Below, one piece after another: positions 1-58,449 of a stretch of DNA of 64,000 nt. The position numbers and the translations under genes were made by a program. A model generated the notes under the pieces. The model saw only the letters and a list, made by a program, of their open reading frames with translations, did not search any database and was not told the DNA's origin. Source of the stretch: Haliotis asinina (taxonomy: Eukaryota; Mollusca; Gastropoda; Lepetellida; Haliotidae); NCBI RefSeq assembly GCF_037392515.1, contig NC_090280.1, positions 26,603,118-26,667,117 on the forward strand, written 5' to 3'. Positions within the stretch are counted from its first letter, which is position 1. Each line of letters begins with the position of its first letter.

Positions 1-2020
1 GTCGCTTTTTCGTATTGACGCATTTTGCTTACAGTGTGTGCTTGCATTATATTTCATCCGCGACAAATTGAAAACGCAGTTTTGTTAAGAAATGGAAAAC
101 CTGAATAGAGACAGTTAAAATGACCCGTGGAATTTTCGTTCGCATGTTTTGTAGACAAAAAATGACTGGGTGATGATATATGACATTATATTTAATAATG
201 AAAGGCGTTTAATAGTATGATTGTCATATAGTTGCGTTGCTTGCCAAACATTTAACAAAAACATTACTGTTGAGAGGAACATAAAAACTGCGTTTTCAAA
301 ATCTTTTTGCATCATTTATTTAATTATGGTGTACGATGTTTTTACAACTGCTTGGTAGAAATGATAAACATGTATGTTAGTGTTGCAGTGGTTACGGTTG
401 TCTTTTTGTTTTCCTAACAAGATGGCTGTTCGTGAAACGAGTGGAGACCAAAAAAAATTAATGTCAGGAAAGTAAAGTTCCGTAGCCAGTTTAGGGTGGA
501 ATATTAATGTTACAGACGAAGGGTATCAATTTGCAGCGGTACTGGTCAGAATATATCAAACGAATCAGTATAAGGTATCCAATTTCGTGGCCAGTGTTTT
601 GTGTTTTAACCCCAAACAGAAAAAAGACAACGGACATCGGAATTTCCAAGATTTAAGTGAGACTCTAAACATCGAAAACACTTTCACTTTATAACTGGTA
701 TGAGTTCGTGCTATTGTTGAAGGATTGAAGCCACTTGAAATGAGTCATGAACAATCATAAAGATACAATATTAATGTAACTGAATCAGGCTTTGCTTTGT
801 TTTCCTTTTCCGCGTTCTTTTCATTTTTCATTCAAGGGGTGTGTCGTCAGCTATGCTTTGAAAGAGCTTGTAGTAAAATATTTTGAAATAAAGGCGATTT
901 TGCTCACAAGCGTACTATGTTAAGATTCAAATTCCGTGCCCACGCTCGGTTTGTTGTGGCTGTGATAAGAGCAAAGGTATTGTTACACTTCCCATCTCAT
1001 TTAGTACGAAAAACAATAACACTGGATTGGAACTTCTGTACTTGTTACCACAGCACGTAATTCTGTGATTCTGTGTAGAGGGAGAGGGTGGAAGGTGGAA
1101 GGTGGCACACAACATTTCACAGCTATGATTTACGCAACACAGGGAAAAACATTTTACTTTGTTATTTCACACAGTGTTGTGTTTCTCTGTGTATGAAAAA
1201 GGAGGATGGGGAAACGTTAATAAATGTTTTCTCACATTAGGCTACACTCGATACTGTGGTCCTGTATAGAGGGGACCGAAAGATGTCTCCTCTGGTGGTA
1301 TTGTATGAAGTACTATCATCACCCCTATTTCGGGATTCGTATCGTATAGCAGCTGTAGTACACACATTTTTGGCAGTATGTCGTCATGACTAAAACTGTA
1401 GTATCGGGATATATCGTATCGCAGGTTGCATGCCTGTACGATGTACCAGCACTACTAATTATGTTGAAGTAAAACGTTACAGCTACCTTTGCTTCATTCT
1501 GAATCGAAGTACAAGTATCCAGTAAATATATGACATGCCAAAAGTATAAGACTATATTTACTCAGAAGAAAATCTTTCTGAAACAGAACATGCAAAAACT
1601 ACAAACGAAAGAATATATGAGAATAATGAGTACTTGTTGAAAACTGGACTGTGACAGTTTCAACATTTGGTCTACATCCCTTTCCGTGGACGGTCTTATT
1701 TACAGCACGAAATATAAAAACCACCAGCTATGTTGTAAAAGAAAGAAAGGGCAGAGGAAAATTCATATATTCTCTAACCATCAAAACATACCACACTCGA
1801 GTACAAGTTAAGTCATATTCCAGCTATATGACAGCGGTCTGTGAGTCAAAGAGGAATAGGAATACTATTCCTTTCATGTTCATGCATTACTAAAAATACT
1901 GTAAATCCGTTATAAACAATAGTTGTGATACTCAATGAAGTTTTTCACGAACTCAGAATCAGAAATACTGATATAGAAAGGTAGGTTTTTAAAAGCATTT
2001 GTGTTGCTAGTATACATCCT
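1..2020. other. No gene recognised
   Basis: AT-rich sequence. The open frames are short and lack exon-like borders or recognisable domains. No repeat family was recognised either. Confidence 0.5.
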
Positions 2021-2024
2021 TGAT

Positions 2025-2255
2025 GCACAGCCATGCGTGGTGTTGGCGTGACACGTGTACTGTCCTGACACAGATACATCTATCTACAGCTGGCATATAA
2101 AACACAAACTCCCTGTGTCCTGTAATCACCACCTGTCTGAATGTGTTCCACCAGGTTACAGTGCAGGCAGGGTTACAGGCAGTTACATCTCATTTTCAGT
2201 GGGTCACCTTCTGATACATCCTGCCTGCCGCTTAACAGCACCGTGTCTGGTTCAT
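2025..2255 (-). pseudogene. Decayed Ig-domain exon, copy of receptor Ig3
   Basis: On the minus strand this matches the third Ig exon of the receptor at 43454-43720 closely over most of its length, including the acceptor (TTTTCAG at the 2255 side), the region coding the Cys-rich B strand (NPACTVTWW-like) and the F strand (QYTCH-like). The reading frame is lost: about 2 bases are missing after the first conserved Cys codon, and about 4 bases (a GATA repeat) are added before the F strand. The 3' border has also drifted. It lies downstream of the Ig1-like copy at 2625-3102, in the same order as in the intact gene, but no Ig2-like exon is visible between them. It is best read as the remains of a duplicated receptor gene. 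Confidence 0.7.
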
Positions 2256-2624
2256 CTGAAAAGAATTGTAATATATTTTCTCTATCAGAACACGTGCATT
2301 ATATATGTATCCGATATATATGTAACTGTGATATCGTTGTCTTCCAAAGGTTAGAATGCTCGCCCCGAGGAACGTTGCTGGTCATGCGGAAAACTTGCCA
2401 TTGCCATTGTTTTTCCCATAGTGATAATGAAGTGGTTCAGTGAAATAAAATGACTGGATAGGGTATGATTTCATTTGAAAGGATCCAAGATTCTATTCCT
2501 CGGGTTACTTTCTCATGAGAGACTCCAACTCACTCAATCAGTCAATCATTGTGTCTCAGAAACAAGCTTTTAATGTGAATTGTCTGTTTGGTACACTAAT
2601 CATGCTCAGATTATCTTTACACAC

Positions 2625-3102
2625 AGGCAGTGCAAGAAGTTGAGCCTCATGAGTCACGTATCCGCTAAACGTGCTTAAGTTGTAGACTCCGGCTTCCTGT
2701 ACGTCAACACTGTGGAATGTGAGACTGATCATGACTAGCTTCCTCCCCTCCTGGAATGTATTGACAGTCAGCTGAACCCTCGTCCCGTTCACTGTGTGTG
2801 TATTGACAGTCAGCTGAATCCTCGTCCCGTTCACTGTGTGTGTATTGACAGTCTCTTGAATTCTGGTCTCGCTCACTGTGTGTGTATTGACAGTCAGCTG
2901 AATCCTCGTCCCATACCCTCTGTATGTGTTGATACTTGCAGGCGGAAGCCTTTTTTCATTCATAATGAACAGGACAGTGGAATCATTTCGTTTGGGCTTC
3001 CCTTAATGGTATATGGTAGAATATACCTTAAAACCCGTGTCTGACTGACTCATACTCCAAGGTGTTGACACTTTGTCCGACACCAGTGTTGGTATAAGAA
3101 GC
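2625..3102 (-). pseudogene. Ig1-like exon copy with internal repeat expansion
   Basis: This is a minus-strand copy of the receptor's first Ig exon (45389-45730). It shares the start (CAG then GCTTCTTATACC), the VGQ-V-N region, the SQS-TGFK segment, the strand coding FHSVDVQ-AGVY and the downstream stretch that holds the donor in the intact copy. The donor (GTAAGT in the intact gene) is no longer recognisable. The 5' third seems out of frame with the open 3' part. The middle of the domain is expanded by a 42-bp tandem repeat (2759-2926). Like the intact copy it lacks the usual Ig cysteine in the F strand (AGVYNLS). Expression is doubtful. Confidence 0.7.
2759..2926. repeat. 42-bp minisatellite inside an Ig-like exon
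   Basis: Four head-to-tail copies of a 42-bp unit, each coding about 14 residues on the minus strand (VNTHTVNGTRIQLT-like). The intact paralogue at 45.5 kb has one copy of this segment. The period is a multiple of three, so each added unit keeps the frame. Confidence 0.85.
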
Positions 3103-36850: not shown

Positions 36851-36993
36851 GACCTCTTTATTCTGTATAGGCGACCTTCGACTTAGATTCTAATGTCGTT
36901 GTCCAGCAAAGCATAATGAAGTTGTACCTCCATAATAAATATCCTCATTCTTCATCTTCTCAACTTCTAGAATGCCGACCAAAGAGGCAACAT
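36851..36993. mobile_element. Foldback MITE-like element, second copy
   Basis: It carries the arm sequences of the 13790-13993 element in the other orientation ('tattctgtatagg', 'tcctcattcttcatcttctc', 'aacttctagaatgcc'). Confidence 0.55.
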
Positions 36994-37427
36994 ACCTTGT
37001 CTATTCAAATACCAAGATGGTTAGCCTTGTATGAAAAACAAGATGCATAACCTATATGATCAGCAAGATGCCAAACGTTGGATGAACTCAAAAACACAAC
37101 CTGCCAAGTCTCTATAAAGACTAGATGCTTATAGTATATGAACAATAACATGCTAAACGTTATATGAGTTCCAAAAATGAAACAACCGTTTGACAAAATA
37201 CTTTCACAACTTAGTGTAATTCGACAAAATAAAGGAGGTAGATTCCCTACTACGTATGAGGGAAGAAAATACTGTCATGAGAATGCTTAAGTAAACTGAT
37301 CGCCTTTGGGGCGAATTATAAGCTATTGCTTCTCTCTCTACGGCCAGTGCACAACCTTGTAGATAAAAACACCAATGAAACCAATGTAACCTTGAGATTC
37401 TCCTGTACTCCCAATTCAACCTCCCAG

Positions 37428-37640
37428 GTCTTGTCTGGCAGCTGAAGATACGCAAGTGTCTTTCATCTTCACTCCTTGAAGCATTGCCTCCCTCCTCCAG
37501 CTCTTCCACATCCATGGTCTTGTCCTGCAGCTGTAGATTCTCAAGGTTCATTCATCTTCACTCCCAGAGGCACTGTCGTCTCTCCTCATCCTCCTGCTCT
37601 TCCACCTCCCATATCTTGTCCGGAAGCTGTCGCCCGGGGG
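37428..37640. repeat. ~89-96-bp tandem repeat over the receptor's 3' end
   Basis: Units start at about 37428, 37517 and 37613, each with 'cttgtc..gcagctg' and 'catcttcactcc'. The uppermost unit lies within the last coding exon of the receptor and contains its stop. The other copies extend into the presumed 3' UTR and still code a similar acidic peptide in one frame. Confidence 0.8.
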
Positions 37641-37761
37641 TGAGGGCGAAGTCAATCTCTTCATATACCACAGGCTCCTCCCTTCTGTGTATGATTGGTT
37701 GGCCGTCGATCAAGGTAGGCGATTCAAGGGCAAGATCGGCGTAGGTCAGACCATCATCATT
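37558..37761 (-). CDS. Receptor tail exon 4: two ITIMs and acidic C-terminus
   Basis: The acceptor AAATTTCAG precedes AATGATGATGG and the phase is 0. The exon codes 67 residues. It opens with NDDGLTYADLAL, whose LTYADL fits the ITIM consensus (I/V/L/S)xYxx(I/V/L) and is the hexapeptide I recall from the SIRP-alpha tail. REEPVVYEEIDF follows as the second ITIM. The exon ends in a Glu-rich stretch and TGA at 37558-37560. Confidence 0.85.
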   Translation of the reverse strand, partial: NDDGLTYADLALESPTLIDGQPIIHRREEPVVYEEIDFALTPGRQLPDKIWEVEEQEDEERRQCLWE

Positions 37762-40700
37762 CTGAAATTTTAACACAACTGCACTTACAAATGTCTAACT
37801 TTTCTATCAGGGGAATTTATTCCATGACTGAACCCAAATCTGCACCTGGTACATTTACTGTTTACAGTTCACTAATGCAGATAATGCTTTCTCTTTGTGT
37901 TCGTAGCAACTTAGAGTCGTTTCGGCATTGTGTCAGCCAATCAGGGACGTCTCTTCCCGGAAGTTGGGAGGATATGTATAATAAACATACCGTTTCGCCA
38001 CAGTTGTTGTATTCGGCAGCGACTGGTCCTGCATAGTCGATTAGAACTGCATTTTCCGACTGGAGACAGCAAACATATGACCTCAACAATATGATGTACT
38101 GAACACATGATATCTTCACACATCTCATTTATTACATTGCATGTGTTGTTCAGGCTCTTGAAATGACTTGTAATGTTAATGCCCATATAAGTCTTGCTTT
38201 TTTATGAGGAACCGAACTTATTGGTAACTTTTGTTTTTGCATTACTTAAATGAATAAGAACATAATGTAACAACGTTGAAATTATTGAAAGAAGTAATAC
38301 TGTCCTTCTGCTAGTGATACGTAAGTTCGTTCTTAATGAAAGAAAAACATTGTTTTAGAACTTGGCCTCGATCTGACAGCTGCGAGCTTTTTGTATTTTT
38401 CTCTTTAAACTACACCCATTCGTGAACTAAGTGATGCTGTTCTGTGTTGACATATGATTTATGACATGTTAGGTTTGCTTTACGCAACACTCAGCAGTTG
38501 ACGTCAATGAATGAACGAGAAAATCAATGGTTTACATAATGAGCATCGATCTTCGCAATTGCAATCATTATCTCGCGAGGTGCGGGGTGGCCTAGTGGAT
38601 AAAGCGTTCGCTCCTCACGCCGAAGGCCCCGGTTCGATTACCCACATTAGTACAATGTAAAAGTCCATTTCTGGAGTTCCCCCGTGGTGATGTTGCAGGA
38701 ATATTGCTGAAAGCGGTGTAAAACCAAACTCACTCACTCACCCATCACCTTACGTTGCCTATTTCGTATCCATGTCTTTACGACACACTGACTGAATGGT
38801 AATAAATTATCTTCCTGTCAGTTTTGTATTGTAGGAAAACAGTTCCAGTACACACTTACCGATGGCCCTGCGCCGGCATAAGCCCTGTTCATGAAGTGTC
38901 TGCATTGAGCCTTCTGTACCGTGGCATAAACATCAGACACTGTGGAAAAGAGAACAAAGCAGATGAACTTAGAAGAGTTGTGTGAGATTGGTACTGAAGC
39001 CTTGATGGGTCATTCGGGGTTTCGCTTTTTTCAACTTATTTCCTTGAATTTTCAAGTTTGTAACTTAATAATTCAACATGAGCATTTGGAAATTAATGAA
39101 AAATGACCCCAGAAGGCTTCTATAGGATGTCAAACTTACAGTAATCTCTTTCAACAAAGACACCTGATGAGTAGGTGTCAAAAACAGCGAGTGTGTGTGC
39201 GAGGTTCGCGAATCTTCGTTAAAGTGATTTTTTGTACATCCGTCAGTGACACTGACGACAGCTTGTGTTAAACACCTATGGTCTGATGCTGACAAATAAA
39301 GAACCTTATTTGGGGATTCGCACCCATAACCATAGTTTCTTTTATGACAGACAAGGACAGCCATTAAACAGGGTGAATGTCAGTGCTCTAGACGGCACCT
39401 CCATCCACACATTGTCACAGAAAATACACAAGGACACACCGCTGAGGTTAAATAGTCAGGACCTAAGATGACGTCATGGCGCGTAGATGACGTCATGGGG
39501 TGTAGATGACGTCATGTATAGATCACCTCAAGTGAGATTTGCTTTACGCCGCTTTTAGCAATATTCCATCAACATCACGGCGGGGACACCGGAAATGGTC
39601 TTCATTAAACCCATATGGAGAATCGAATCCGGATCTTCAGCGTAACTAGCGAACGCTTTATCCACTAGGCTACCTCACCTAAGGTGAGACTCACTGACCA
39701 CAAGGATAGAAAGATGGGCTATACCTTCTCTCCTGCGCCTTCTCTTTTTGTTCACCTTGGCATACAGGTCTGTAGGTAGAAGTATATAGTCAGAAACAAG
39801 TATTACAAGAAGAAATAATATCAATGGTTCTACAGGCCTTTACATCGCACTCAGCAATATACCAGCTATGGCAGCGGGCTGTAACATCGAGCCTCGACCA
39901 GACAACCTCGCGTTTAACATCATGAGCATTGATTTCAGCAACTGGGACATGATACCAGGCATAAATGAAGCAGATAGTCTAACCGTTAATAATTTGTGAA
40001 GAGCATTTGAAATCTACATTTTCACGGGGTAGATTACTTGTATTTGTAGATTCTTAAAGATCTACTTGCAAACGTATCCATTACGTAACAGCTTATCATT
40101 CAATCACCCAATCCTAAACACTGCTTGTCACCCAATCCTAAAAACTCCTTGTCACCCAATCCTAAACACTGCTTGTCACCCAATCCTAAACACTCCTTGT
40201 CACGCAATCCTAAACACTCCTTGTCACCCAATCCTAAACACTGCTTGTCACCCAATCCTAAACACTGCTTGTCACCCATTGCACTCTGTAATCAACAACT
40301 GTGTAATCAGTATTACATTGTACATCAGTAAAGCATTTGTGTGTACATGCATATGAAATTTTGCTTATTATTTATCACAAGGTGTGGCTTGTCAGATAAT
40401 ATGCGACAGCGCATGGTGTTTTTCTCGGTCTGTGGAACATTTGGCCGACCTACAGTTATTCCACTATTTATTCTGCAGTAAACAGCATGCTACCAATAAT
40501 GTGTGTGACGTAGATGAATGAATAAATAAATTTGGATTTACGCCGCTTTTAGCATTCTTTCAGCAATGGCATGGTGGGGGACACCAGAAATGGACTTCGC
40601 ATGTTATACCGAAGTAGGGAATCGAACCCTGACTTCCGGCTTGACGAGAGAACGCTTTAGCTACTGGGCCACCTTTCCTCTCCTTGACACATGAAATGCA

Positions 40701-43700
40701 GCACAAGGACCTTGGTATTACTCGGGTCATGTGTGGCTGATTAACTATAGCGGCTTTTCAGTTGCTTCGTTTGCGAACGGGTGTTTTTCCCAACATGTAG
40801 TTCAAGGTCACTTTATATATCCTGGGGGGTTATCTTCTTCCTAACATTGGAACATAATTCATCTTCCTTGAACACAGGTCCTATCTTCCGGGCAAGCCGG
40901 GAGATAATAATATTCCATGAATGATTTCCAAATAATCAAGTTGATTAGAAACAAACATCAAGTACAAGGAATTTGATACAAATACAAGTACGTGGCGTGT
41001 GGCGGTTAGGTGGAGGTAGAAGTTGGAAAGGGGAGGGGCATGTGGCGATTGGGTTGGGGTTGGGATGGCGCGTCGCGGTTGGATGGAGGTGGAGGTTGGA
41101 GTGTCGTGTGGCACTTGGGTGGGAGTAGGGATTGGGAGTTCTATTACTTGTGGGGTGTTGCTGCACACATAAAGTTCAATAAACTGACCTTGAGTAATGG
41201 CGACGAAAAGTTTTACATGAAATCTGTGAGCATAACTTATTAAGTTTGATACAAATCCAGCCTCCCCCTGCTTCTTCTTGTGCGACTTGATGTATAATGG
41301 CGTTCGCGTCATCTCCCGATACAATGCTTAAATTACATGTATCACGTTATATGTGACCACTGACTGTGTCACTGTTACTAGACATATCCTATCCAGATGC
41401 CATAAGCACTACTTTCAATTATCCGTTTGTTTGTTGCGCTCAGCATACCGAACCCGGGTCTTCGGCATAACAGGGCGGTGGGGTAACTGCTAGCTTGTGG
41501 TTAGTGCGTTCGATCGTTACGGCGAAAATGCGGATTTGATTCCTCACTTGAGTACAATGTGTCCATTTCTGGTGTAGCCCAGATATTTTTGGAATGTCGC
41601 TAAAACTAAACTCACTTTCCTCGATCTGACTAAAAATCTCTGGACTATCTCACGCCCCTACGAACAATGAATGCATTACATTCATACAATCTGCAAGGGT
41701 TACGAATAAGTGCTGATCGCATGCGCCGATACACTTTGCAAGATTTCACATGCTTACCACTGGGATCTTGTTGCAATTGTGCTTCGTTGTCAGCCATACT
41801 GCGGTCTCCAGCTCTGAAAGACATGCATGAGGTGAAGGATTAAGCAGTTCATATCATTACGCGGCATACACCAGTCTGCAAAGTTGTGCTTCGAAAAGAC
41901 CAGCCTTTAATTAGTTAGCTGCCAACGCTGATATTACCTACCTGAGCCTACCTGATAACAACTTCTGTGATTATCTTGAACTTGTAATGCTCATCTTGAA
42001 AGTACAAACGACAATGCTAATCCTGTATCGTTTCTTTTCACTACCTTACCTTATGAGAGAAACACTTAACCGTATTTTGTAGGAGTAGCTCTGTACCTTA
42101 ACTTGAAGGAGTAAAACTGTATCTTAACTTGTAAAAGTAACTTTGCACCTTAACTTGTAGGAGTAAAACCGTACCTTAACTTTTAGGAGTAAAACTGTAC
42201 CTTAACTTGAAGGAGTAAAACTGTACCTTAACTTGTAAAAGTAACTTTGCACCTTAACTTGTAGGAGTAAAACTATACCTTAACTTGTAGGAGTAAAACT
42301 GTACCTTAACTTGTAGGAGTAAAACTGTACCTTAACTTGTAGGGGTAAATCTAAAGCTGAACTTGTAGGAGTAAAACTGTACCTTAACTTGTAGGAGTAA
42401 AACTGTACCTTAACTTGTAGGAGTAAAACTGTACCTTAACTTGTAGGAGTAAAACTGTACCTTAACTTGTAGGAGTAAAACTGTACCTTAACTTGTAGGG
42501 GTAAATCTAAAGCTGAACTTGTAGGAGTAAAACTGTACCTTAACACATGTGAGTGACCCTATACCTTAACTTGTCTGAGTAACCCTGAACCTGTAGGGCT
42601 AAACCTGTACCTTAACTCGTACATATGTAAACGCTGTGGTCTTCTCATTGTTCTTGAAATGATATACTGACAACAGATACCTGCTATTGGGTGTCCTCAC
42701 CTGTACACTTTACCTCCTGAAACAGATAAAACATACCCTAGTGTAATCACTACTAATGCAAATTTTCATTCAGAAAGGATTCAGTTGCACTTACTGTAAT
42801 TGTAAAAAATGACGAGATGCATAACAGGATATACGATAGCAGCATAATTCATATTTATTGTATCACCACATTGACGATACCTTTCTTGATCCTGCTTCTT
42901 CGGAAAACGACGGCGACGATGACGAAAGCGATGACGACAATAAGGACAGAACAGACGGCAGCCACAGGTACGATGAAATCGACACCAGATTCAGTTACCT
43001 CACGTGCTGCAACATTCACTATACTAAATAGCAGCTTTCCTTTGATTCAATATACATACAACATATGGTGTAAGATCACACTGAAATGTGTTCAAATGGA
43101 CGCAAGTGTCGCAAATGTCAGGATTTATTGGAACTCGAATTATATAAATGATGTATGTAATAGAGGAAATATAAATTGTTTTGTTCTCCTCGGTTCAGAT
43201 ATGATTTATTTTGCTTTTGAAGAATCTGAGAGTGGAGAATCACGCTGACTTGATGTCATATCATCAGATCAATAGTCAAGATTGACCCCTGAGCTATATT
43301 ACGAGTTTGAATAAACACTTGTCCAGAATCTCTGTGTGTTTTGAGAAATTTGAAGGCAGTAAAAACTTAAACAATCATTACATGTCTCATTCAAATATAA
43401 TTTTAAATGTTGCATATTCTAAAGTGTGTTTCCGGAATGTGTGGAGGCCTTACTGAAGACCTCCAGTGTCAGGTTCCGCGATGCACTGCCATGGCTGTTG
43501 TTGACGTGACACGTGTACTGTCCAGACACAGACACATATACAGCTGGTATAGACAACACAGCCTTCCTGTGTCCTGTAATCACCACCTGTCTGGATGTGT
43601 CCCACCAGGTTACAGTGCAGGCAGGGTTACAGTCAGCAGAACATCTCACTGTTATGGGTTTCCCTTCTTCTACCTCCAGCTTGTCCCTTGTGCCGTCAAA

Positions 43701-45730
43701 CTGTATCTGGTCAGGTCCATCTGCAATGCATGTGAGATGATCAGAAATAATAATTTGAAATTTTCTTCTATCATACCACCTTATACTAGTATCTAGATTC
43801 AAGATGATAATGAAACTAATGAAGAATGTTTTTTTTATTATAACTAGAATTTTAGCCTCGTGTCTACTGATATCACCCTCGTTCATTACGATAAAAATAT
43901 CTTCGGAAAGCCTTTGTAACTTTATCAGCTCGTGTTTATATAATTGATATCAGTAGACACGAAGGTGATAGTCTTTATTTATGCGTATACGTGAAGACTA
44001 ACTGCAACAGAGGACATGGCGTGGTGATGAATCGGATCGGACCCCATAGCTCGGGTCTTTGAGAAAATCCGTTTCAGGAAGTTTGTAGTTTCTGAGTTAT
44101 AAGCGGATGGGCAAGCTTCATGTTCCCCTGAAGTTTAGGCATCAAACGTTGATAGTGACAACATGTAGAGTAGAATCAGATTTTCTGAGTACTGTATATG
44201 AAGAAACATCTAGCTTCTGTTATTGTTTCAATATTAATCAACCTGAACCTACATAAAACATTGAGTGTGTATCCCTGACTCCAGTCTGACAGTAGTCCTT
44301 CTTCTCCAGATTGACACGAGTACACTCCCTTGTCCTCCTTGGTGACGTAGTCTATGGTCAGGAATTGTCCGTCCACGTGCACTCTGTTGTCTACACTGCT
44401 GTCTACACTCCTGTTGTTTCTCCTCCAGGTGTAGGACGTGGTCAGAGTATACGGGTACAGGGACTGGTCTGTAGGAAGACTCCGGGAGGTTGTGGAGCAG
44501 GTCAAGTTCACAGGATCACCGGATACAGTGTCTGCAGCAGTCGTGATGATGTTCGGTTCTGATGGTTTCCCTGTGAAAAGATGAATGGAAGTGGTTGTAA
44601 TTTTGCTCTTAGTCTTATTAATTATTAATAACACATATGAATATGTACTATAGAGTCAGTGACATTCAGTCACCATATGCCAGAATGTCGTTTGAACGAA
44701 AAGTTTATTTGAATTGATCTTAGTGAACGTCATCCCGACATATGTTCTATCCATGCCCAAGGAAGTAATAACGTGTCTGTGGATGGATAATGAATGTAGT
44801 GAGGCAGAATCGCTGACCACATCCGTGATAATGTCCATAAAACGTCTGCACGGAGAAAGGATGGTCAGGTCTTATAAAGCGTCTGCACGGAGACAAGGTC
44901 AGGTGTTATAAAGCGTCTGCACGTAGAGAGGATGGTCAGGTGATATAAAACGTCTGTAGTGAGAGGGGGAAGGCAGGTGTTACAAAACGTCTGTAGTGAG
45001 AGGGGGAAGGCAGGTGTTACAAAACGTCTGTAAGGAGAAAGGAAGGTCAGGTGTCATAAAACACAAGCAACACCTTCATGAAAGTGCCATGGAAGAAGAT
45101 TGGCCAGTGTCATAGTATACCCTTCAACAGTCATAAGATATATTTCATCTGGATTCTTTTACAGGATGAAGCTTTATAGCTTCATCGCTAACGTAATTAG
45201 TTCTTGCAATGACATCTGTGTAAACGACATTAAACTATAATGCTATAATGATAAAACTTCCTTTGTAAGTATGGATGATTATTTCGCAGATTATCTGCCC
45301 GTGACCGCCATATTTCTATCAATGTGTCTCAAAAACTAGCTTTTGGCGCGGAGTTTCTATTTGGTGCTCACATTATCTTCACACTTACGCAGTACAAAAA
45401 GAAGTTGAGTCCCGGGAGACACGTCACTGTTATGAGTGGTTAAGCTGTAGACTCCGGCGTCCTGTACGTCAACACTGTGGAATATGAGCATGACTTGCTT
45501 TCCCCCCTCCAGGGATGTACTGACATTCAGCTGAATCCTCGCCCCGTTCTGTGTGTGTGTGTTGACAGTAGCAGACAGAAGCTTATTTTCATCCACAATG
45601 AACAGGACAGTGGAACCAGATCTGTTGTTGTATGTGATAGATTTTATCTTAAAATCCGTAACTGACTGACTGACACTCCAGGTCATGTTGACATTTTGTC
45701 CGACACGGGCCACAGTGTTGGTATCAGAAG
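37558..45730 (-). CDS. Ig-superfamily transmembrane receptor with ITIMs
   Basis: Eight exons, listed 5' to 3' on the minus strand: Ig1 45730-45389, Ig2 44570-44253, Ig3 43720-43454, transmembrane 43018 (or 43006)-42881, tail 41811-41758, 38939-38860, 38059-37991 and 37761-37558 (stop TGA). Every junction has AG/GT and the phases match (1-1 through the first tail exon, then 1-0, 0-0, 0-stop). About 485 residues result without the leader. The layout is three extracellular Ig-like domains, one membrane span followed by FRRSRIKK, and a tail of roughly 135 residues. The tail has LTYADL and VVYEEI with their tyrosines 26 residues apart, plus DVYATV and EYNNC. Two ITIMs at such spacing are known to recruit SHP-type phosphatases, so an inhibitory role at the plasma membrane is inferred. 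The leader exon should lie above 45730 and was not found. Introns hold SINEs and minisatellites. The species' name for the gene is unknown to me. Confidence 0.85.
37991..38059 (-). CDS. Receptor tail exon 3
   Basis: 69 bases, phase 0-0, between CTGTCTCCAG and GTATGT. It codes 23 residues including LIDYAGPV and EYNNC. YNN fits the YxN pattern bound by the Grb2 SH2 domain, so the tail may carry adaptor sites as well as ITIMs. Confidence 0.8.
38580..38748 (+). mobile_element. tRNA-derived SINE in a receptor intron
   Basis: 'gtgcggggtggcctagtgga', 'ggccccggttcgattaccca' and 'aggaatattgctgaaagcgg', then an ACTC tail. It lies antisense in the intron between the second and third tail exons. Confidence 0.85.
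38860..38939 (-). CDS. Receptor tail exon 2
   Basis: 80 bases, entered in phase 1 and left in phase 0, between CTTTTCCACAG and GTAAGT. It codes about 26 residues including SDVYATVQKAQ. YATV resembles an ITIM but has Asp at -2. A second tyrosine lies in NRAYAGAG. Confidence 0.8.
39469..39514. promoter_or_regulatory. Three TGACGTCA palindromes at 19-bp spacing
   Basis: TGACGTCA at 39469-39476, 39488-39495 and 39507-39514, each inside a 19-bp unit (gtagatgacgtcatgg-like). The octamer is the consensus CREB/ATF site. The location is a receptor intron; function is unknown. Confidence 0.4.
39533..39685 (-). mobile_element. tRNA-derived SINE in a receptor intron
   Basis: The inverted family sequence runs 'ttacgccgcttttagcaata' to 'ccactaggctacctcacc'. 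Confidence 0.85.
39836..39975 (-). mobile_element. SINE, second family, diverged
   Basis: Inverted: 'cgcactcagcaatataccag', 'aacatcatgagcattgattt' and 'caactgggacatgatacc' match the 57017-57280 family. Confidence 0.65.
40098..40280. repeat. 24-bp minisatellite
   Basis: About eight units of 'cacccaatcctaaacactgc' plus ttgt. The period is divisible by three, so repetitive frames (HCLSPNPK-like) appear, but they have no coding support. It lies in a receptor intron. Confidence 0.9.
40521..40680 (-). mobile_element. tRNA-derived SINE in a receptor intron
   Basis: Inverted 'tttacgccgcttttagcatt' to 'gaatcgaaccctgacttccg' and 'gctactgggccacctttcc'. Confidence 0.8.
40990..41140. repeat. G-rich degenerate repeat
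   Basis: Irregular 'tggcggttaggtggaggt' and 'gggttggggttgggatgg' units, about 30 bp apart. G-rich on the plus strand. Confidence 0.6.
41472..41622 (+). mobile_element. tRNA-derived SINE, diverged
   Basis: 'agggcggtggggtaactgct' to 'gaatgtcgctaaaactaaac'. A reversed scrap of the family ('gaacccgggtcttcggcata') abuts it at about 41450. Confidence 0.7.
41758..41811 (-). CDS. Receptor tail exon 1 (juxtamembrane)
   Basis: 54 bases, phase 1-1, with donor GTAAGC. The acceptor is read as TTTCAGAG before CTGGAGACC, which keeps a polar frame (GDRSMADNEAQLQQDPS). Using the AG two bases earlier would shift the frame. No tyrosines. Confidence 0.7.
42070..42625. repeat. 26-bp minisatellite in a receptor intron
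   Basis: About 21 units of 'aacttgtaggagtaaaactg' plus tacctt, many identical. A higher-order variant ('gggtaaatctaaagctg') appears at two places about 150 bases apart. Confidence 0.9.
42881..43018 (-). CDS. Receptor transmembrane exon
   Basis: It codes a short stalk (AAREVTESG), a hydrophobic span of about 25 residues beginning VDFIVPVAAVCSVLIVVIAF, and the basic stop-transfer FRRSRIKK. The donor is AAAG|GTATCG. The start is either after TATAG at 43019 (138 bases) or after TTGCAG at 43007 (126 bases); both keep phase 1. The antisense plus-strand frame is a shadow. Confidence 0.8.
43454..43720 (-). CDS. Receptor Ig domain 3
   Basis: 267 bases, phase 1-1, acceptor GCATTGCAG, donor TTCA|GTAAGG. 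It is a C2-type Ig domain. The B-strand Cys is in ITVRC, followed by extra cysteines in DCNPAC, then TVTWW; the F strand is SGQYTCHV. N-glycosylation sites are possible at NNS and NLT. Confidence 0.9.
43858..43962. repeat. Hairpin with perfect 18-bp arms
   Basis: TCGTGTCTACTGATATCA (43858-43875) and its exact inverse (43945-43962), loop 69 bases. It lies in the intron between Ig2 and Ig3 and is probably a small foldback element. Confidence 0.75.
44253..44570 (-). CDS. Receptor Ig domain 2
   Basis: 318 bases, phase 1-1, acceptor CTTTTCACAG, donor TTAT|GTAGGT. It is a canonical Ig domain: VNLTC in the B strand, SYTWRRNN in the C strand, EDKGVYSC in the F strand and GYTLNVL in the G strand. Confidence 0.9.
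44830..45062. repeat. ~36-bp minisatellite in a receptor intron
   Basis: About six units containing 'aaaacgtctgtagtgagagg' and 'ggcaggtgttac'. It lies between Ig1 and Ig2. Confidence 0.85.
45389..45730 (-). CDS. Receptor Ig-like domain 1
   Basis: 342 bases, phase 1-1, acceptor CATGTTTCAG, donor CTGC|GTAAGT. It has the Ig pattern (NMTW in the B strand, FHSVDVQDAGVY before the F strand, TQLLFVL in the G strand). The two usual disulfide cysteines are absent: the B strand reads NVNMTW and the F strand AGVYSL. It is the membrane-distal domain among those found, and it has a broken paralogue at 2625-3102. Confidence 0.85.
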
Positions 45731-46497
45731 CTGAAACATGTCAGCATAATTAGTACACGATACAGAAAAGAAACATAAAGGCCAACTTTGAAAAATAAAT
45801 ACGCGTAACTGCATATTTGATCCAATTTGATTGATACAAAGATGACATTATGGTGATAGTCACATCATGGCAATGCTAATTGCCCTGTCGTAAGATGCCC
45901 ACTCAGTGAGCTGTCGATCATCACTTCTCTGTACTACTGTGTGGATTTCTCTGCCATTCTTCCCACAATGCACTGTAAACGTGTTTCAGTCTGATGTTGA
46001 CCTCGATGCAAACACTAAGATGTTGTATCGGATCTCTTTCGTTTGAAAAATATGGTCCCTGCACCAGTTCCCTGAACCGCCACCCTGTAGATCTTCCCAA
46101 GCAGGGTATGATTCCCCACACTATCACACTTTCGACACAAAACCTGTCGACCTGTCGAAAAGTGCTTAATACCTTCATTTGACCTCAGACGACAGGCTAC
46201 CATCAGTTTCAGCATTGAGGGAGAATTCACGAATCATCATTGCTCCAGACTCGCCATTTTCTCCATACCTGCAAGGTGTTGCTCCATGCTACACGTCGGC
46301 GTCGTCGGCACAGACTTCTCAGCATAGGAACAAATACTTTGGTGTCTGATTTCATGCTGTTTGGTCGGTCAACAGCACATACCATGCACACGTCGAGCAG
46401 TGTCAGCAGTGGTAGATGGATGGCGGTGAGGTAGATGAAAGACATGAATGTTGCGATATTTTGCAAGATTGGGGACTCTTCTCTACCACTTCTCGGG

Positions 46498-46541
46498 TGC
46501 GTGAGTGCGTGAGTGCGTGAGTGCGTGAGTGCGTGAGTGCT
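46498..46541. repeat. 8-bp tandem repeat (GTGAGTGC)n
   Basis: About five exact units. It inflates a 111-codon minus-strand frame. Confidence 0.9.
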
Positions 46542-46789
46542 TGCTTTGAAACTTAGTGTCACGTCGCGGTCGGCAATATTGCATCAATATCGTGACGAGA
46601 ACAATTTAATTTATATTTATTATCTATTAAAATCAATACATTTAGAACGTAAGAGCTGCCATCAAAGGACAGTACAAATATCACACATCGTAATTTAAAC
46701 TGGTACGCTATCATGGAAATAATCACTAGAGACAACAGTACTATGAAAAAGGCCATAGATCACCAGCATCTGAACGTTGATCACTAGGG

Positions 46790-46945
46790 ACGAATGAGTG
46801 AGTGAGTGAGTGAGTGAGTGAGTTTTGCGCCGCGTTTCGCAATATTTCAGCAACTGCGGGGAACACCTGAAATGGGCTTCACACATTGTTCCAATGTTAG
46901 GAATCGAACCCGCATCGAATGTTTTATCCACAAGGTTACACCACA
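46790..46945 (-). mobile_element. tRNA-derived SINE with (GTGA)n tail
   Basis: (GAGT)n at 46794-46824, then the inverted core 'cgccgcgtttcgcaatattt', 'ggaatcgaacccgcatc' and a diverged head. Confidence 0.8.
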
Positions 46946-47564
46946 ACCATTGGTGATTAATTGAACGAGATATGGTGTTATGGAGTACCTTCCCTGGGCC
47001 TTTTCTGACCTCGTGTAAGACAAAACAAATTTCACCTCATATTGTGGCCTTGGAGAGGCGAGTAAAATGGGTAAAATGGACAGCCAGTCTCGTGGCGCTC
47101 AGCAACACCGGACCTTGCACATCATATTAATCACTGGTTGATGATTACTTCAGTTGGAGTTCTGTCGAATGTTTCGAAAAACAAAACAGCAAACATGTTC
47201 AATTCTACCAAAACATAACAAAATTTGAACAAACATTATATCTAACTGGAATTATCAAGCGTAAAGATAAACGCTTACCAGCAAATTCCAGAATACCTCC
47301 ATACAAGATCACAGCTTTTAGACAAAAAATATGAAAAAACATGATAGGTGTGTTTGCCTCCAGTGTGTTGACTACCAGAAAACACTTCTGATGATTTTTA
47401 AAACTATTTGTCAGTCAGACTTGTCATGAAATATTTCCGTGTTATTAAGGGTCATTTGTGGAGGAAATGGGAAGTGAAAACTGCATATATACACCGTGTT
47501 GTAACCAGTGAGAAACACAGGAGGATATGTTGTACTACTCATATACGTTCTTCTATATACTGGC

Positions 47565-47735
47565 AATCAAGGCGACTTACTGGATTGAGCGGGCAAGCTC
47601 GCTGATTTAGTTGACACGTGACATAGATGCTCATGCTGTTGCTCACTGGTTTATCTGGCCCACACTCGATTATTCACACAACACCGCCTTATAGCTGCAC
47701 TACTGCTAAGTGCGACGTTAAACATCCAGGAAACC
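47565..47735 (+). mobile_element. SINE, second family, diverged
   Basis: 'aggcgacttactggattgag', 'agatgctcatgctgttgctc' and 'taagtgcgacgttaaac' match the 57017-57280 family. Confidence 0.7.
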
Positions 47736-48149
47736 ATGTTTAGTATCATCAGGATCAGTGTCATATAATATCATAAAGTTTGCACATCGGTTTTTAGTTT
47801 CATACCTCAATGCAACGAAAGAAATACACAGTCAATCCTTAAGTGAATGGTGTGTCTTCTTTGTTTTCCAAACAGTGTTTTTCAGTGTTTACGTTTCATC
47901 ATCCGAGCTGCCCGCCCACTACAAAAGAAGATGAAGATGCTAGAAATTAAAGGGTACCAGTTGCAAGGGTACTGGAATGATAAACTCCAGCAGAAAAACT
48001 GAAACACTATTCTTTCACCACGGTGGCCCATGAACCATACCTTCTTTTCAAATATTAAAACCGAAATTATGCTTTTGACATTCCGAGTTATTACTCGCGG
48101 GTTGAAGATACTGCAGTGTAATAATCTTACAGCAATATTACACTAGTGA

Positions 48150-48190
48150 AACGCATGACGTCAAACTGGTTCAAAGTTGTGACGTCACAA
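48150..48190. promoter_or_regulatory. Two TGACGTCA sites
   Basis: TGACGTCA at 48156-48163 and 48180-48187 in a CpG-richer stretch (48060-48370) that also has an inverted repeat. The stretch may be a promoter or part of a transposon end. No transcript start can be fixed. Confidence 0.3.
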
Positions 48191-48312
48191 TGCTAACGTC
48201 GCTGTCGCTATTTGACTAGACCTTGCTTGACTCGCGGAAAGCTGAGAGTCCTTACACTGTAAGCAATTTTGCCGCAGTTTCTGTCAGTTTATGTTGGCGA
48301 GTAATAAACAGA

Positions 48313-48363
48313 ATACTAAACTCGCTTAATAAAAACGGTATTACACGGAAGCGAGTTTAGTAT
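48313..48363. repeat. Hairpin with perfect 15-bp arms
   Basis: ATACTAAACTCGCTT (48313-48327) and its exact inverse (48349-48363), with a 21-base loop. Confidence 0.8.
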
Positions 48364-48385
48364 CTTCTATATACGCATCATTTAG

Positions 48386-48628
48386 CCAACGCTAAAGTAT
48401 TCCTGTTGCGATTCGTTATCATTTGGTGGCTCCTTTAAATTCGAAGGCAAGAAAGCGATATCCCGAGACGAAAAAGCGATAGCACGAAACGAGAAGGCAA
48501 TATCAGTGCGCGAGAAAGCAATAGAACGAGAAAGCCATAAAGTAAGAAAGCGAGAAAGCAATTCAGATCTGTCTGCACATGATCTATTACAGCATCGTTT
48601 CTGCATAGCATTAAGTGGTTTTCAGTAA
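48386..48628 (+). other. Open frame with heptad-like KAI repeats
   Basis: A plus-strand frame without an internal ATG start, open from after TAG 48383-48385 to TAA 48626-48628. It contains KKAISRDEKAIARNEKAI and further EKAIERE units, a repeat of about seven residues rich in Lys/Glu/Arg that could form a coiled coil. It could be an exon, a transposon fragment or a degenerate 21-bp DNA repeat. No family recognised. Confidence 0.25.
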
Positions 48629-49237
48629 TGTTCTTGGAGGGCGTTGTATGACTTAATGTTTAAAGAATATCTAATACGGGTTTACACGTTCCTGTTTGTA
48701 CATATATGCAATGGTCATTTTGTGAAATACAGGAAACATTCATTTCGTGAAGTGACTGAAATACATATTCTATGCCAATAATGGTCTCGGATTATCTTAA
48801 CCAACTTAATGACACCAATCAATGAAATTATGATATTGTGTGGCCACTGTTTCGGAAGTGCCAGGTGAAAGGGAGAGACCTATGACACATAAGGCATTGA
48901 CATGAGTATCTTTCATGTTGATTTCCATCATCATTGGTCAGCACTAAGAGAACGTAGCAAAAGCCACACCCATCATCCTAAAATAATATCATTCTAGCCA
49001 ATCGACAAATATTTGCTATGAATATCAAACGGCATAAACAATGTATTAATTCAATTAAAATTACTCTTAAAGATGTCTTCACGGAACAAAAATTCTTTGC
49101 TATTAAGATTAATTCGTTCTAAGTAAGATTGTATCTTATTTTGAATGTACTATAATACTGTATCTCACTGAGTGTAATAAAGAAAACGGAATAAAAATGA
49201 AAAATAAATTGAGAGCTACACCCTACCACATTAAGTT

Positions 49238-49280
49238 GCGATTTATGCCGCTTTTAGCTATATTCTATCAAAATGGAACT
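49238..49280 (-). mobile_element. SINE 3' scrap
   Basis: 'gatttatgccgcttttagct' only. Confidence 0.5.
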
Positions 49281-49891
49281 TGAGTTTTTTTCGCAACTTC
49301 TTGTATGTCAAAAACATCGCATTCAGGGATTATGTGACACTATAAATGAGCCGTATGCAGCCGATTCTATAATAATTATCAGTTCTCGCTGTCTGGTTAT
49401 AGGTGGAGGAATTAGAAATGAGGTATGGGAACTTGAGAGGCATGTAGAAGTTGGTATTCGGGAATGAGACAACATATTATGGTTGTCAACTTCTTCTTTA
49501 TTGTTTACACAACGTTTCTGGGCAATTCCTTGCCCACTCGTCATGTGGATATTAACTGACAATTATGCAGGATATATATACCAGTAATGTGCATGAAGCC
49601 AGAGTGATGATTAGAAGCATGTACATACAATAAACAGCAGACAATAAGATGAAAGGGAATTAAACATACAAAAACCGGTATGGTGTTATTACAGCAGAAT
49701 AAGTGGTTAAGCGATAGGAGACAATGAGGGTACAACAGGGTGGATGATAATCTACGATACGCAAAGATTAGGATACGATATATAAGGTAGGGATGAAGCT
49801 GTTACAGTCTAATAATAGGCGATTGGTGAAACCTTGAGTCTAAGTAATTTCGTTAGATGGCAACGTCAAACAACGCAGGATGATGGTTTGG

Positions 49892-50120
49892 TTGGTGTGT
49901 TGTTCAACACCGCACTCGGCACTATTCCAGCTATATAATAATTTGTAAATAATTGAGTCTGGACCAGACAATTAAGTGATCAACATCATGAGCACCAATC
50001 TACGTAATTGGGATACGACGACGTGTCAACCAAGTCAGCGAGTCTGACCACCCGATCTCGTTAGTCACCGTTTACGGCAAGCATGAGTTGCTGAAGACCA
50101 ATCTTCGCCCGCATCTTCGA
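49892..50120 (-). mobile_element. SINE, second family
   Basis: Inverted: 'caacaccgcactcggcacta', 'gagtctggaccagacaatta', 'catcatgagcaccaatctac' and 'ccacccgatctcgttagtc'. Confidence 0.75.
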
Positions 50121-50259
50121 GGGGCAGACAAGAGGAGAGATAAGTCTAACTCTAAGTCTAAGCCTCCCTAACTGAAGATTACAATGGTACAGTTGGATGT
50201 TTACGACAGGTATAATGTACAGGTGACATGAAGGATACTGCACAAATAGATGCATGCTT

Positions 50260-51840
50260 TAGATATAAAATCAACAAATGAGGAACATTATTTTGCACCA
50301 GATATCAAAAGCAATGTCAGCAACACATTCCGGAAAGCCACCAAGTAGAAATGTAATCATAGTGTCATAATCGTTTGCCTACGAAACCACAAAGCAATCT
50401 ACATCGAGTATATCAATGACACTTCCATACAGTTCATATATTTCTTTCATATTCATACGGCAAGACACGAATACATGCTTAATGATATCATAAGCAACAG
50501 TACCACAGCAGCATTCCTTTGCTTGAAGCTTATTTTATGCAAGTGAAACAATACGAGACAGCTGCTTTACATAGATAAAGTTGGGGTAACAGCCACAGTT
50601 TATTATGTTCACATCTGATAGGGCCATTCGTCACACCACACGGCTGGTAAGGAGGGACATATCCATACAGTGCACTTTCTCCAACACAGTGCTAGTCCAC
50701 TTAGATTAATTTACTGAGTACGTTGCCATTAGCATCACGTTCAGAAACGTCACTAGAGAGACTGTACTTTTCAACCTTCTGGACAATATTGAAGCATGGT
50801 GAATAGGAACATCTTTTAGCGCACGCTCACACTTAAAGTGAACAAGTCTGCCGATAAACACATGTTTAAAATAGTAGCAGCAACATGCTCTACAGAGTTT
50901 GCCCATAAGAAGAAGAGATTAAGAGTCAATATGGGATTGTATACTGATAAGAATTATGCTGTCAGCATAACTTCATTCGGGGTATTCTTGGGAATGCCTT
51001 GAAGCTTTACAACGTTTACATTAACCAGTTTCTCACAGACTTCTCACAAACAAATTCGTCTCCCACTACAAGAGAAGAGCACGCCCGCAAGTACTCTGTT
51101 GGCGAGGAGTATGAAGACATGACTGTTGTTTCACGACGATGTTCCTCGGTGTCATACGGTTTCGGCATAACCTCAGGCCACAGTCATTTGCCTTTCTCCA
51201 ATTAAACTTTTCACCACCATAAATTTTATAGCTGTTTTGTATATCCATGAACATCATGAGAAGAAGGTGGTCTGACACTGAATAGGTTATATTAGTGTCC
51301 GTCAGGTATCCTGTTACACAGTGAAGGTCCTCTGACGGGGACAATAGAACATAGCTGTCTCACTGTCAGGGCTCTGCGTAGACTTGCAACATGCTTCTTC
51401 ATGGGCGCAATGTGTGTTCTCAAGTCGGTGTTAAAGTCTCCCATTAGTATAGTTTGACCGGCTTGAGAGCAGATATCATACAGTTCCATGATGTTGAGTC
51501 TAAAACATTTGATGAAGGTAGATGAGCAACAATTATATATACTTCACTGTCACATGATTTTAGTCAAACACAAAGTGAACGTTCATATCCACCTTTGTGA
51601 GTTACTGATATCTTATAGTTCATGTGTTTTCTGACAAGCATTAGAACTCCTCCACATCCCCTTTGACCTGTTGATACCTCTGTAGAGTTTCTCAAGCAAT
51701 TCTCAACTTACTTGACTCGTCAAGCCAAGTTTCACAAATGACGTCATAATGGCCAACCTTCTGGTTCAAAGTGTCTACACCGTTACCAAGACCACGTATG
51801 TTCCACGTACCAAAGATTGTGAGATGCATTATTAAGGACC
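50260..51840 (-). mobile_element. LINE fragment: endonuclease and linker region
   Basis: On the minus strand the region at about 51835 codes TIFGTWNIRGLGN, the start of an apurinic-type LINE endonuclease. HYDVICETWLDE follows, then ILMGDFNTDL at about 51440, then SVSDHLLL (SDH motif) at about 51270. Below 51000 a coherent but stop-broken stretch (for example ELYGSVIDILDVDCF) fits the region between endonuclease and reverse transcriptase. The RT itself is absent. There are several stops and frame changes, so it is dead. Confidence 0.7.
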
Positions 51841-52371
51841 ACTAAGAGTAGAGCCATTAGTGATGTGGCTTGGTTACTCTCTAACATGAGTTTTCTTTAT
51901 CATTTCGTGTGCTGACATCTTGTGAGTACCAGTATTGCTTCGGCACCCACTCGCGACAAAGTACATCCTCAGGCCTGAAAGTCTCTTCTGGTTGACGTTG
52001 CTTCTAGTTTAGCAAATAAATGGATCCAGGATTTGGATGGCATACTAAATACTGAAAATATTACATACATGCGACATTTTCAATTTCAAAGTATTTCTAG
52101 CGGCAAGACCGACATGAATATTGACGATTCCACCAGTTGACAACATACAGCCGTGGGACGAACCCGATCTTGACTAGATCTACGTTTTGAATAGACTACT
52201 GCATACTGGTATGCAAGCCACTTGCCTACAATATACTCTTCAAACAAAGTAGGGGAACCCGAACTGTGAAGTCTGGTAAAAGGAAAACCCATGGGGGAAC
52301 ATTATAATGACATTCATCTTTCGTATGCAGCATCATTTCACATTATCACCACACGCAAACACAGTGCATGG

Positions 52372-52538
52372 TCAGCACGTGCACAAGTGGTGCACGAGCT
52401 TCGAACACGTGCATGGGGTGTCATTATGAATCTTGACGTTTCTCAGGCTGGTCGATAAATCACTGTAGACCATTTTCCGATACTTTTCTTGCATCTGTGC
52501 ATGGTCAGGGTTTTCAGAGTCAAATCCCACACTACTGA
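52372..52538 (-). CDS. Possible terminal exon, unknown gene
   Basis: An excellent acceptor (ACATTTTTCAG) starts a phase-1 frame. It codes SVGFDSENPDHAQMQEKYRK, then MVYSDLSTSLRN, and ends at TGA 52372-52374. It is polar, with a tyrosine motif VYSDL. No partner exon was found upstream within 1 kb. It could be the tail exon of a second membrane protein, or chance. Confidence 0.3.
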
Positions 52539-52599
52539 CTGAAAAATGTAAACGTAAAAGTTTCATGTCATATTCCAATGTTCGATCAATGTGTTACGT

Positions 52600-54240: not shown

Positions 54241-54244
54241 CTTT

Positions 54245-57480: not shown

Positions 57481-57489
57481 ATGTGTGTG

Positions 57490-58270: not shown

Positions 58271-58280
58271 AACGAGTATG

Positions 58281-58307
58281 CTTCCTATGGTATGATACCA
58301 TAGGAAG
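58281..58307. repeat. Near-perfect 27-bp palindrome
   Basis: 13-bp arms CTTCCTATGGTAT and their exact inverse around a single central base. It could extrude a cruciform or bind a dimeric factor. Confidence 0.85.
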
Positions 58308-58449
58308 TTCACGAGTTTCGTATAATTCCTATGTACCCACGTTTTACTTGCATTAAAATGACAAAATATCGCATAGTCATTTTCATGGTTTCAAACCGAA
58401 ACCGGTTTCAGAAACACATTCCGGCAGAATGTTGTACTGCTGTTCACTC

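Follow-up and report, generated by a model that had tools for sequence, protein, structure and literature searches.

Vertebrate innate immunity relies centrally on paired activating and inhibitory immunoglobulin (Ig) receptors. SIRP-alpha and the CD33-type Siglecs have Ig domains and tails with immunoreceptor tyrosine-based inhibitory motifs (ITIMs), and the SIRP architecture consists of a V-set domain followed by two C1-set domains. In the CEACAM1/CEACAM3-type receptors of mammals and Xenopus, an IgV N-domain is followed by IgC-like domains, the genes are clustered, and tails with ITIMs or with immunoreceptor tyrosine-based activation motifs (ITAMs), or ITAM-like tails, are found on similar N-domains (PMC5112662). 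Here, we analyze a gene of this general kind in a 64,000-nucleotide stretch of the abalone Haliotis asinina (C1:26603118-26667117, where C1 is contig NC_090280.1). We refer to this whole stretch as the window.

According to the available text on CEACAMs, the vertebrate genes lie between lipe and bcl3, and the N-domain exons of ITIM members have a dN/dS of 1.0-1.3 (PMC5112662). Among invertebrates, the Botryllus fester co-receptors (FcoR) and Hydractinia Alr proteins are type I Ig receptors that carry ITIM and ITAM-type motifs and are encoded by multigene loci (PMC12065747). The FcoR proteins, as far as that text describes them, contain a sushi domain in addition to ITIMs and hemi-ITAMs (hemITAMs); they form pairs with fester proteins, and some of their loci swap motifs by splicing (PMC12065747). 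Molluscan Ig-domain proteins in immunity have also been described: oyster CgIgIT2 has five Ig domains, a transmembrane (TM) segment and an ITAM (PMC11999971), and blocking oyster CgSiglec-1 leads to more apoptosis and phagocytosis (PMC5877582).

The abalone gene lies on the minus strand of the window and has 10 exons. They encode a protein of 522 aa, with a leader, a V-like first Ig domain (Ig1), two further Ig domains (Ig2 and Ig3), a TM segment and a tail of 157 aa that is spread over exons T1 to T5. Judging from its sequence, we believe, with a probability of roughly 70%, that it belongs to a large family of paired Ig receptors that is clustered on a chromosome in abalone, and that it is one of the ITIM-type (inhibitory) members. 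We further infer a role in immunity. That a receptor gene is present at all had been reported in an earlier assessment of the sequence (the original prediction), and this was confirmed.

Comparison with described receptors

The abalone gene shares features with each of these systems. Its Ig domains and ITIM-type tail are of the kind found in SIRP-alpha and CD33-type Siglecs, and its motif LTYADL is what we take to be the SIRP-alpha hexapeptide. However, a C1-set domain is absent among the nine Pfam families that match the protein without its leader at E<=1, of which Ig_3, I-set and Ig_2 rank highest, and the homology that we observe to SIRP-alpha and Siglecs goes no further than the Ig superfamily (IgSF). 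Likeness to CEACAMs is likewise of a general IgSF type; the present genes differ from them in belonging to a mollusc and in that the ITAM-type gene that we read has a second TM exon. In contrast to FcoR, entire tails differ between genes, and the activating motif has two YxxL/V halves. The oyster proteins CgIgIT2 and CgSiglec-1 differ in that the available texts describe them as single proteins, without an ITIM/ITAM pair on one ectodomain type (PMC11999971, PMC5877582).

We do not file the receptor as a CEACAM, SIRP or Siglec member, and the nearest molluscan proteins that we found, based on what the available texts report, are CgIgIT2 and CgSiglec-1. In the part of the open-access literature that our search covered, we found no description of a molluscan cluster of this type, which does not prove that it is absent from print.

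Two tail types on related ectodomains

The gene does not stand alone. Genome searches, which covered the 1.14-Gb assembly and whose counts are lower bounds for all exon types, found 26 ITIM-tail copies and at least 57 copies of an ITAM exon, with an Ig1 like that of the window upstream of both. The 26 copies of T5 were retrieved with T4 and T5 as query; 25 are located at 24.24-27.15 Mb of C1 and one at 2.96 Mb. In all 26, which we read, the first motif is LTYADL (20 copies), LIYANL (1) or LTYADP (5), and the second is V[V/I]YE[E/Q]I (22) or AVYE[E/Q]I (4). Since five copies read LTYADP, the pair is not universal; 21 of 26 copies retain both ITIM-consensus motifs. Stops occur in three copies (loci L044, L045 and L052), past both motif positions. 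An Ig1-type match (E<=1) lies within 15 kb upstream of 22 of the 26 ITIM exons. The exons recur, with order and splice flanks unchanged, in three further genes, namely L014/L015 (in which T2 is changed past DLYAKV), the L067 gene (Ig1 to T5) and L095 (Ig1 to T3), and because of this recurrence we regard the exons as more than chance.

The T5 copy outside the main cluster (C1:2963767-2963937) is a distant relative that reads LIYANL and VVYEEI, and there are Ig1-like exons near 2939638 and 3027027. These relatives at 2.94-3.03 Mb possibly represent an ancestral or an escaped member. Decayed relatives also exist. One, at 2009..3102 of the window on the minus strand, comprises an Ig1-like exon that contains a stop and has undergone a 42-bp tandem expansion, together with a frameshifted Ig3-like exon; no Ig2 match was seen there. 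Others, with stops or as fragments, are at L009 (4513-6671, minus strand) and L024 (7071-7823, minus strand), and the L024 fragments adjoin ITAM-exon-like repeats despite their location in the ITIM block.

The ITAM-type tail was traced in a gene whose Ig1, in L054, resembles that of the window and that continues into L068. The 9 kb read downstream of this Ig1 contain an Ig2, an Ig3 and a TM exon with 91%, 82% and 62% identity, respectively. L068 has no significant match to T1-T5, and instead has an exon encoding DYERLLREQFHIYTSL, with the ITAM spacing YxxL-x7-YxxL. This exon is unrelated to the ITIM tail. Among the 150 of 332 candidates that were scored, at least 57 are near-full-length copies, 55 of them at 22.35-23.57 Mb and two at 28.06-28.09 Mb of C1, with none of them between 23.57 and 28.06 Mb. 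We read 22, of which 15 have a strict ITAM (YxxL/I x6-8 YxxL/I), six have Val for the first Leu (YxxV) and one is broken; a cytoplasmic location of the motif presumes that a single TM exon is used.

L068 has two TM exons: TM-a (~2523-2645), homologous to the TM exon of the ITIM gene, and TM-b (~6967-7083). TM-b joins in frame to a micro-exon of 16 nt, which in turn joins to the ITAM exon; the micro-exon is present in 7/7 aligned loci and TM-b in 6/7 stretches read. Reading through TM-a would lead to a stop four codons on, and thus to a short-tailed form. The path from Ig2 to the ITAM exon was traced in L068, and the other ITAM loci were linked by position and orientation; 36 of the at least 57 ITAM exons have an Ig1-type match (E<=1) within 15 kb upstream. 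We also considered alternative splicing of ITIM and ITAM tails within one gene, and dropped this idea: there is no full ITAM exon in the window or the surrounding 200 kb, where ITAM-exon likeness is limited to two partial repeat-like matches in L024.

The two tail types are joined to closely similar Ig1 domains. Among the 20 best Ig1 matches, 15 are followed on the same strand by an ITAM exon 7.9-12.3 kb downstream, four by an ITIM exon and one by neither. The Ig1 of the ITIM-type L067 gene is identical at 107/114 positions to the Ig1 of L064, whose ITAM exon reads YERVLGGKFHIYTSL (YxxV-x7-YxxL, i.e., ITAM-like), and at 104/114 positions to that of L066. The Ig1 of the window gene is identical at 93/113 positions to that of L054, whose gene continues into L068 with its strict ITAM. 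Both L067/L064 and window/L054-L068 thus show similar putative ligand-binding domains with opposing tails, which is the sequence criterion for paired receptors as applied to Xenopus CEACAMs in the available text of PMC5112662.

In a tree of Ig1 sequences (midpoint root, without support values), the four genes with an ITIM tail are placed at two separate positions among those with an ITAM tail, and therefore the tail type was probably switched, or ectodomains exchanged, more than once. When the DNA of the window gene is compared with L068, identity is 84-91% across exons and introns alike, starting at the end of Ig1 and continuing to ~80 bp beyond Ig3. Past this point, the TM exon alone matches (81%, ~100 bp), barring short dispersed-repeat hits. 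The window gene and L095, by comparison, are 84-87% alike from Ig3 on, with upstream similarity limited to a weak match (66%) in part of Ig2; by exon, the identity between these two genes is 31% in Ig1, 45% in Ig2, 83% in Ig3, 78% in TM, 94% in T1, 100% in T2 and 93% in T3. Because of these blocks of DNA identity, the genes appear to be mosaics assembled from ectodomain modules and tail modules.

Selection on the N-terminal domain and the tails

Based on parsimony counts, the ratio of nonsynonymous to synonymous change (N/S) is 1.55 in Ig1 (174 N against 34 S changes across 17 sequences, with a two-sided p of 0.017 and a codon bootstrap range of 0.99-2.95), 0.42 in T5 (22 sequences, p 0.004) and 0.53 in the ITAM exon (15 sequences, p 0.02). 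Fisher tests, in which changes were treated as independent, distinguish Ig1 from T5 (p 0.0007) and from the ITAM exon (p 0.002). Pooled pairwise pN/pS values are 1.57, 0.52 and 0.41 for Ig1, T5 and the ITAM exon, with a mean dS of 0.070, 0.075 and 0.126, respectively. The contrast between Ig1 and the tails is firmer than the excess of Ig1 over 1.

The T5 set consists of 22 of 26 copies, and leaves out L044 and L045 (stops) and L051 and L052 (less than 85% coverage). For the ITAM exon, 15 of 21 copies were used, the other six having a stop within the aligned stretch after the second YxxL. The 17 Ig1 sequences exclude the decayed copy in the window and L009 (stops), as well as three of the 20 best Ig1 matches, designated 23022302, 25453667 and 22687040.

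Identity of the ectodomain

The predicted Ig domains agree with Pfam in part, since Ig2 and Ig3 pass the cut-offs but Ig1 alone does not (V-set E 0.011, Ig_3 0.008; zero cysteines). When 12 Ig1-type sequences out of about 30 in hand were submitted, V-set was found at E<=0.01 in 10, with a best value of 4.4e-6, and the window's Ig1 is outside those 10. A phmmer search of Ig1 alone against the PDB gave nothing convincing. A profile of the Ig1 family matches Ig domains in the PDB, many over the F-strand half only, and a single-sequence AlphaFold2 model of Ig1 is uninformative, with a predicted local distance difference test (pLDDT) score of 38. For the ectodomain as a whole, the leading PDB sequence matches include CEA, CEACAM1, DSCAM, contactins, CD22, MAG and titin, and the likeness of Ig2 and Ig3 to known receptors appears to be general IgSF similarity.

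The presence of CEA, DSCAM, contactins, CD22 and MAG among these matches, besides titin, is in keeping with a different account: that the genes form an adhesion or an allorecognition/self-recognition system of the kind known from Botryllus fuhc or Hydractinia Alr, not an anti-pathogen one, in which the tails would tune cell or gamete contact via the same SH2 logic. In addition, invertebrate ITIM/hemITAM Ig receptors occur in allorecognition loci, according to the available text of PMC12065747. However, the replacement excess in Ig1 and the many copies suit pathogen-driven or reproductive conflict equally. Moreover, abalones are solitary animals, so colony fusion is inapplicable to them. We regard this account as rather unlikely.

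Tail motifs and candidate signaling partners

As originally predicted, LTYADL and VVYEEI are 26 residues apart and are accompanied by YATV and YNN; in the 522-aa product, the two motifs correspond to Y462 and Y488, downstream of a single predicted TM segment. Both fit the consensus for ITIMs in the cytoplasmic tails of membrane receptors, [S/I/V/L]xYxx[I/V/L]. The 157-aa tail has seven tyrosines, in the contexts YAKV, YATV, YAGA, YAGP, YNNC, YADL and YEEI. Among shuffled versions of this tail, 2.0% have two or more ITIMs, 0.6% have a pair spaced 15-40 residues apart and 0.01% have five or more Tyr-Ala.

The two motifs are not equivalent, to judge from their residues. With phosphotyrosine written as pY, pYEEI is the standard Src-family SH2 ligand, and pYxN is the consensus ligand of Grb2 SH2 domains. 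VVYEEI may bring a kinase rather than a phosphatase, because it has Glu at pY+1 and matches this Src-family ligand. LTYADL has Ala at pY+1. In the available text of one study, Ala at this position promotes SHP1 recruitment, while Ser, Thr, Lys and Asp failed; the Glu of VVYEEI is outside this list of failed residues (PMC8631942).

With respect to partners, the genome has a gene of SHP-2 type at C16:47015732-47017994 (four matches, 66-80% identity to the human SHP-2 SH2 regions) and, more tentatively, a Syk-like gene (three matches with 32-40% identity, in order on one strand of C7, best E 2.3e-8). The query sequences for SHP-2 and Syk were approximate. The suggestion that the protein is an inhibitory-type Ig receptor gains support because both motifs are retained in 21 of 26 T5 copies, T5 is constrained and an SHP-2-type gene is present. 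It has to be modified in that the gene is not a lone one, the two motifs are inequivalent and the pair is not found in every copy.

It might instead be that the tail is activating or adaptor-docking, with YEEI bound by Src-family SH2 domains, YNN by Grb2, and YAKV, YATV and YADL by other SH2 proteins. The Src-family and Grb2 ligands mentioned above agree with this idea, as does the charged pY+1 residue, which is unlike good SHP1 sites in the available text of PMC8631942. However, LTYADL, with Ala at pY+1, fits the ITIM consensus and is present in 20 of 26 copies, with LIYANL in one more. The sister set, furthermore, is already of ITAM type, and a second activating tail would presumably lack an inhibitory partner. 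We consider such a tail unlikely. We consider it highly improbable that the genes reflect a recent burst of duplication with little function, in which the tails would be conserved because they are young or through gene conversion: intron identity is also ~84-94% among the related copies that we compared, decayed copies exist and three tails carry stops, yet replacement is high in Ig1 and low in T5 at a similar mean dS (0.070 and 0.075; Fisher p 0.0007), and the Ig1 of L095 is 31% identical to that of the window while T1-T3 are at 93-100%.

Several observations weigh against an ITIM-type member of a paired family. The excess in Ig1 is modest (codon bootstrap 0.99-2.95), and pN/pS, calculated from few sequences, is 0.54 in Ig2 (n=4) and 0.87 in Ig3 (n=5). 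In the closest pair, L067/L064, the YERV half makes the activating tail ITAM-like and not a strict ITAM. LTYADP is found in 5/26 ITIM-type tails, four of which also have AVYE[EQ]I, and the pY+1 residue of VVYEEI is charged. An Ig1-type match (E<=1) within 15 kb upstream is lacking for 4/26 ITIM exons and for 21 of the at least 57 ITAM exons. A product of L068 that used both of its TM exons would place the ITAM extracellularly. The evidence for a Syk-like gene is weak, as it consists of SH2 matches only, with 32-40% identity and a best E of 2.3e-8. Finally, copy numbers come from one assembly, in which several ITAM copies recur at a ~333-kb shift with equal query identities (C1 ~22.74-22.81 Mb versus 23.07-23.14 Mb); this shift may be a recent segmental duplication or an assembly duplication.

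If the receptor is indeed an inhibitory member of such a family, the fast-changing Ig1 would bind a ligand, which could be self, pathogen or both, and a Src-family kinase would phosphorylate the tail. An SHP-2-type phosphatase would be recruited via its SH2 domain, mainly by pYADL, while pYEEI would either bind the second SH2 domain or act as a docking site for a Src-family kinase; Grb2 is a possible partner of pYNN. This phosphatase would then damp ITAM-type relatives that have the same or similar ligands and would signal through a Syk-like kinase. With a variable Ig1 on constant tails, recognition would change but the signal would not.

Gene structure

All splice junctions of the receptor gene are GT-AG and their phases agree (8/8 between the nine exons from Ig1 to T5). 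The order of Ig-Ig-Ig-TM-tail in the original prediction was borne out by the exon phases and by the same exon order in three further genes. The eight exons proposed there were right in their phases, which are consistent and in frame, but not in their number: nine exons are present in the interval 37558..45730 (T1 had been missed), and ten with the leader.

The leader exon (exon 1, 47279..47342, minus strand) lies outside that interval. A search at preset thresholds for phase-1 leader exons in 45731-62000 gave it as the sole candidate; it encodes the start codon and signal peptide MFFHIFCLKAVILYGGILEFA and has the donor GTAAGC in phase 1. It has 12 other genomic matches at E<=1, and in 11 of these cases an Ig1 match with the same orientation follows 1.8-2.6 kb downstream, so the leader exon that remained to be located recurs upstream of Ig1 in paralogues. 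Its copy in L015 has the same donor. Another signal-peptide-like stretch at ~46445-46380 (MSFIYLTAIHLPLL...) was discarded as leader, as its strong donor is in phase 0. A blastn comparison of the window with the decayed paralogue in it did not reveal the leader exon.

The remaining exons are also on the minus strand. Exon 2 (45389..45730) encodes Ig1, a divergent V-set-like N-terminal domain without cysteines, and is defined by splice sites and phase. Exon 3 (44253..44570) encodes Ig2 (Pfam Ig_3, 2e-9) and exon 4 (43454..43720) encodes Ig3 (Pfam I-set, 7.4e-11), the phases of both being in agreement. Exon 5 (42881..43006) encodes the TM segment; its phase agrees, and it is the final element of the gene that is homologous to the ITAM-type gene in L068. 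Exon 6 (T1, 41758..41811) is 54 nt long, recurs at 94-100% identity in L015, L095 and the L067 gene, and is symmetric (phases 1-1), so in-frame skipping is possible. Exon 7 (T2, 39725..39769) encodes DLYAKV, and its 15 aa are identical in L095 and the L067 gene. Exon 8 (T3, 38860..38939) encodes DVYATV and AYAGA and is 92.6% identical in L014, L095 and the L067 gene. Exon 9 (T4, 37991..38059), with DYAGP and EYNNC, has copies in 25 of 26 tail loci read. Exon 10 (T5, 37558..37761) encodes LTYADL, VVYEEI and the stop codon. A candidate poly(A) signal, based on a pattern match only, is located ~700 nt past the stop (36857..36862, minus strand).

The 3' end of T5 is tandemly repeated into the presumed 3' untranslated region (window 37415-37630; 89-bp unit, 2.3 copies). 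The end of the ITAM exon is also repeated downstream, in ~83-bp units that occur dozens of times in one stretch (e.g., C1:22386197-22397325). In both tail types, minisatellites seem to have grown from the last coding exon. Introns of the window gene contain minisatellites at 42077-42544 (26-bp units), 40104-40278 (24-bp) and 44837-45062 (37-bp), the last of which has grown to ~3.6 kb in the L067 gene.

Other features of the window and genome

The window also contains a C2H2 zinc-finger gene at 10979-12916 on the plus strand, consisting of three neighboring open frames with zf-C2H2 matches. A retroelement-like stretch at 54327-57005 on the minus strand matches reverse transcriptase with 66.6 bits and includes a frame of 369 aa that has a MYND-type finger. 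Dispersed repeats of ~140-165 bp that are 72-82% alike are found in both orientations (window 14835-14996, 38584-38745, 39531-39677, 40513-40673 and others), and look like a family of short interspersed nuclear elements. The window yields neither tRNAs nor, at gathering thresholds, Rfam matches.

Elsewhere in the genome, molluscan haemocyanin domains form two groups, each of eight (sixteen in all), and there are six Egg_lysin matches. Lysin of the Egg_lysin type is found in abalones and top snails. The molluscan origin that had been proposed for the receptor gene is supported by both sets of matches.

Significance

More tentatively, and with slightly less than even confidence, we propose that the loci make up a protostome supercluster like the leukocyte receptor complex, either evolved independently or kept. 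It would comprise ~80 tail loci on one chromosome, with an activating (ITAM) block and an inhibitory (ITIM) block, exchange of distal Ig and tail modules and diversification of the N-domain. If this is true, the supercluster would be a system like that of natural killer (NK) cell receptors and would serve innate discrimination in molluscan haemocytes. A large molluscan cluster of this paired type, with constrained tails and a fast-changing N-domain, would show that the paired-receptor device is not a vertebrate specialty, and the haemocytes of a farmed animal group would offer a tractable system for studying how receptor pairs arise.

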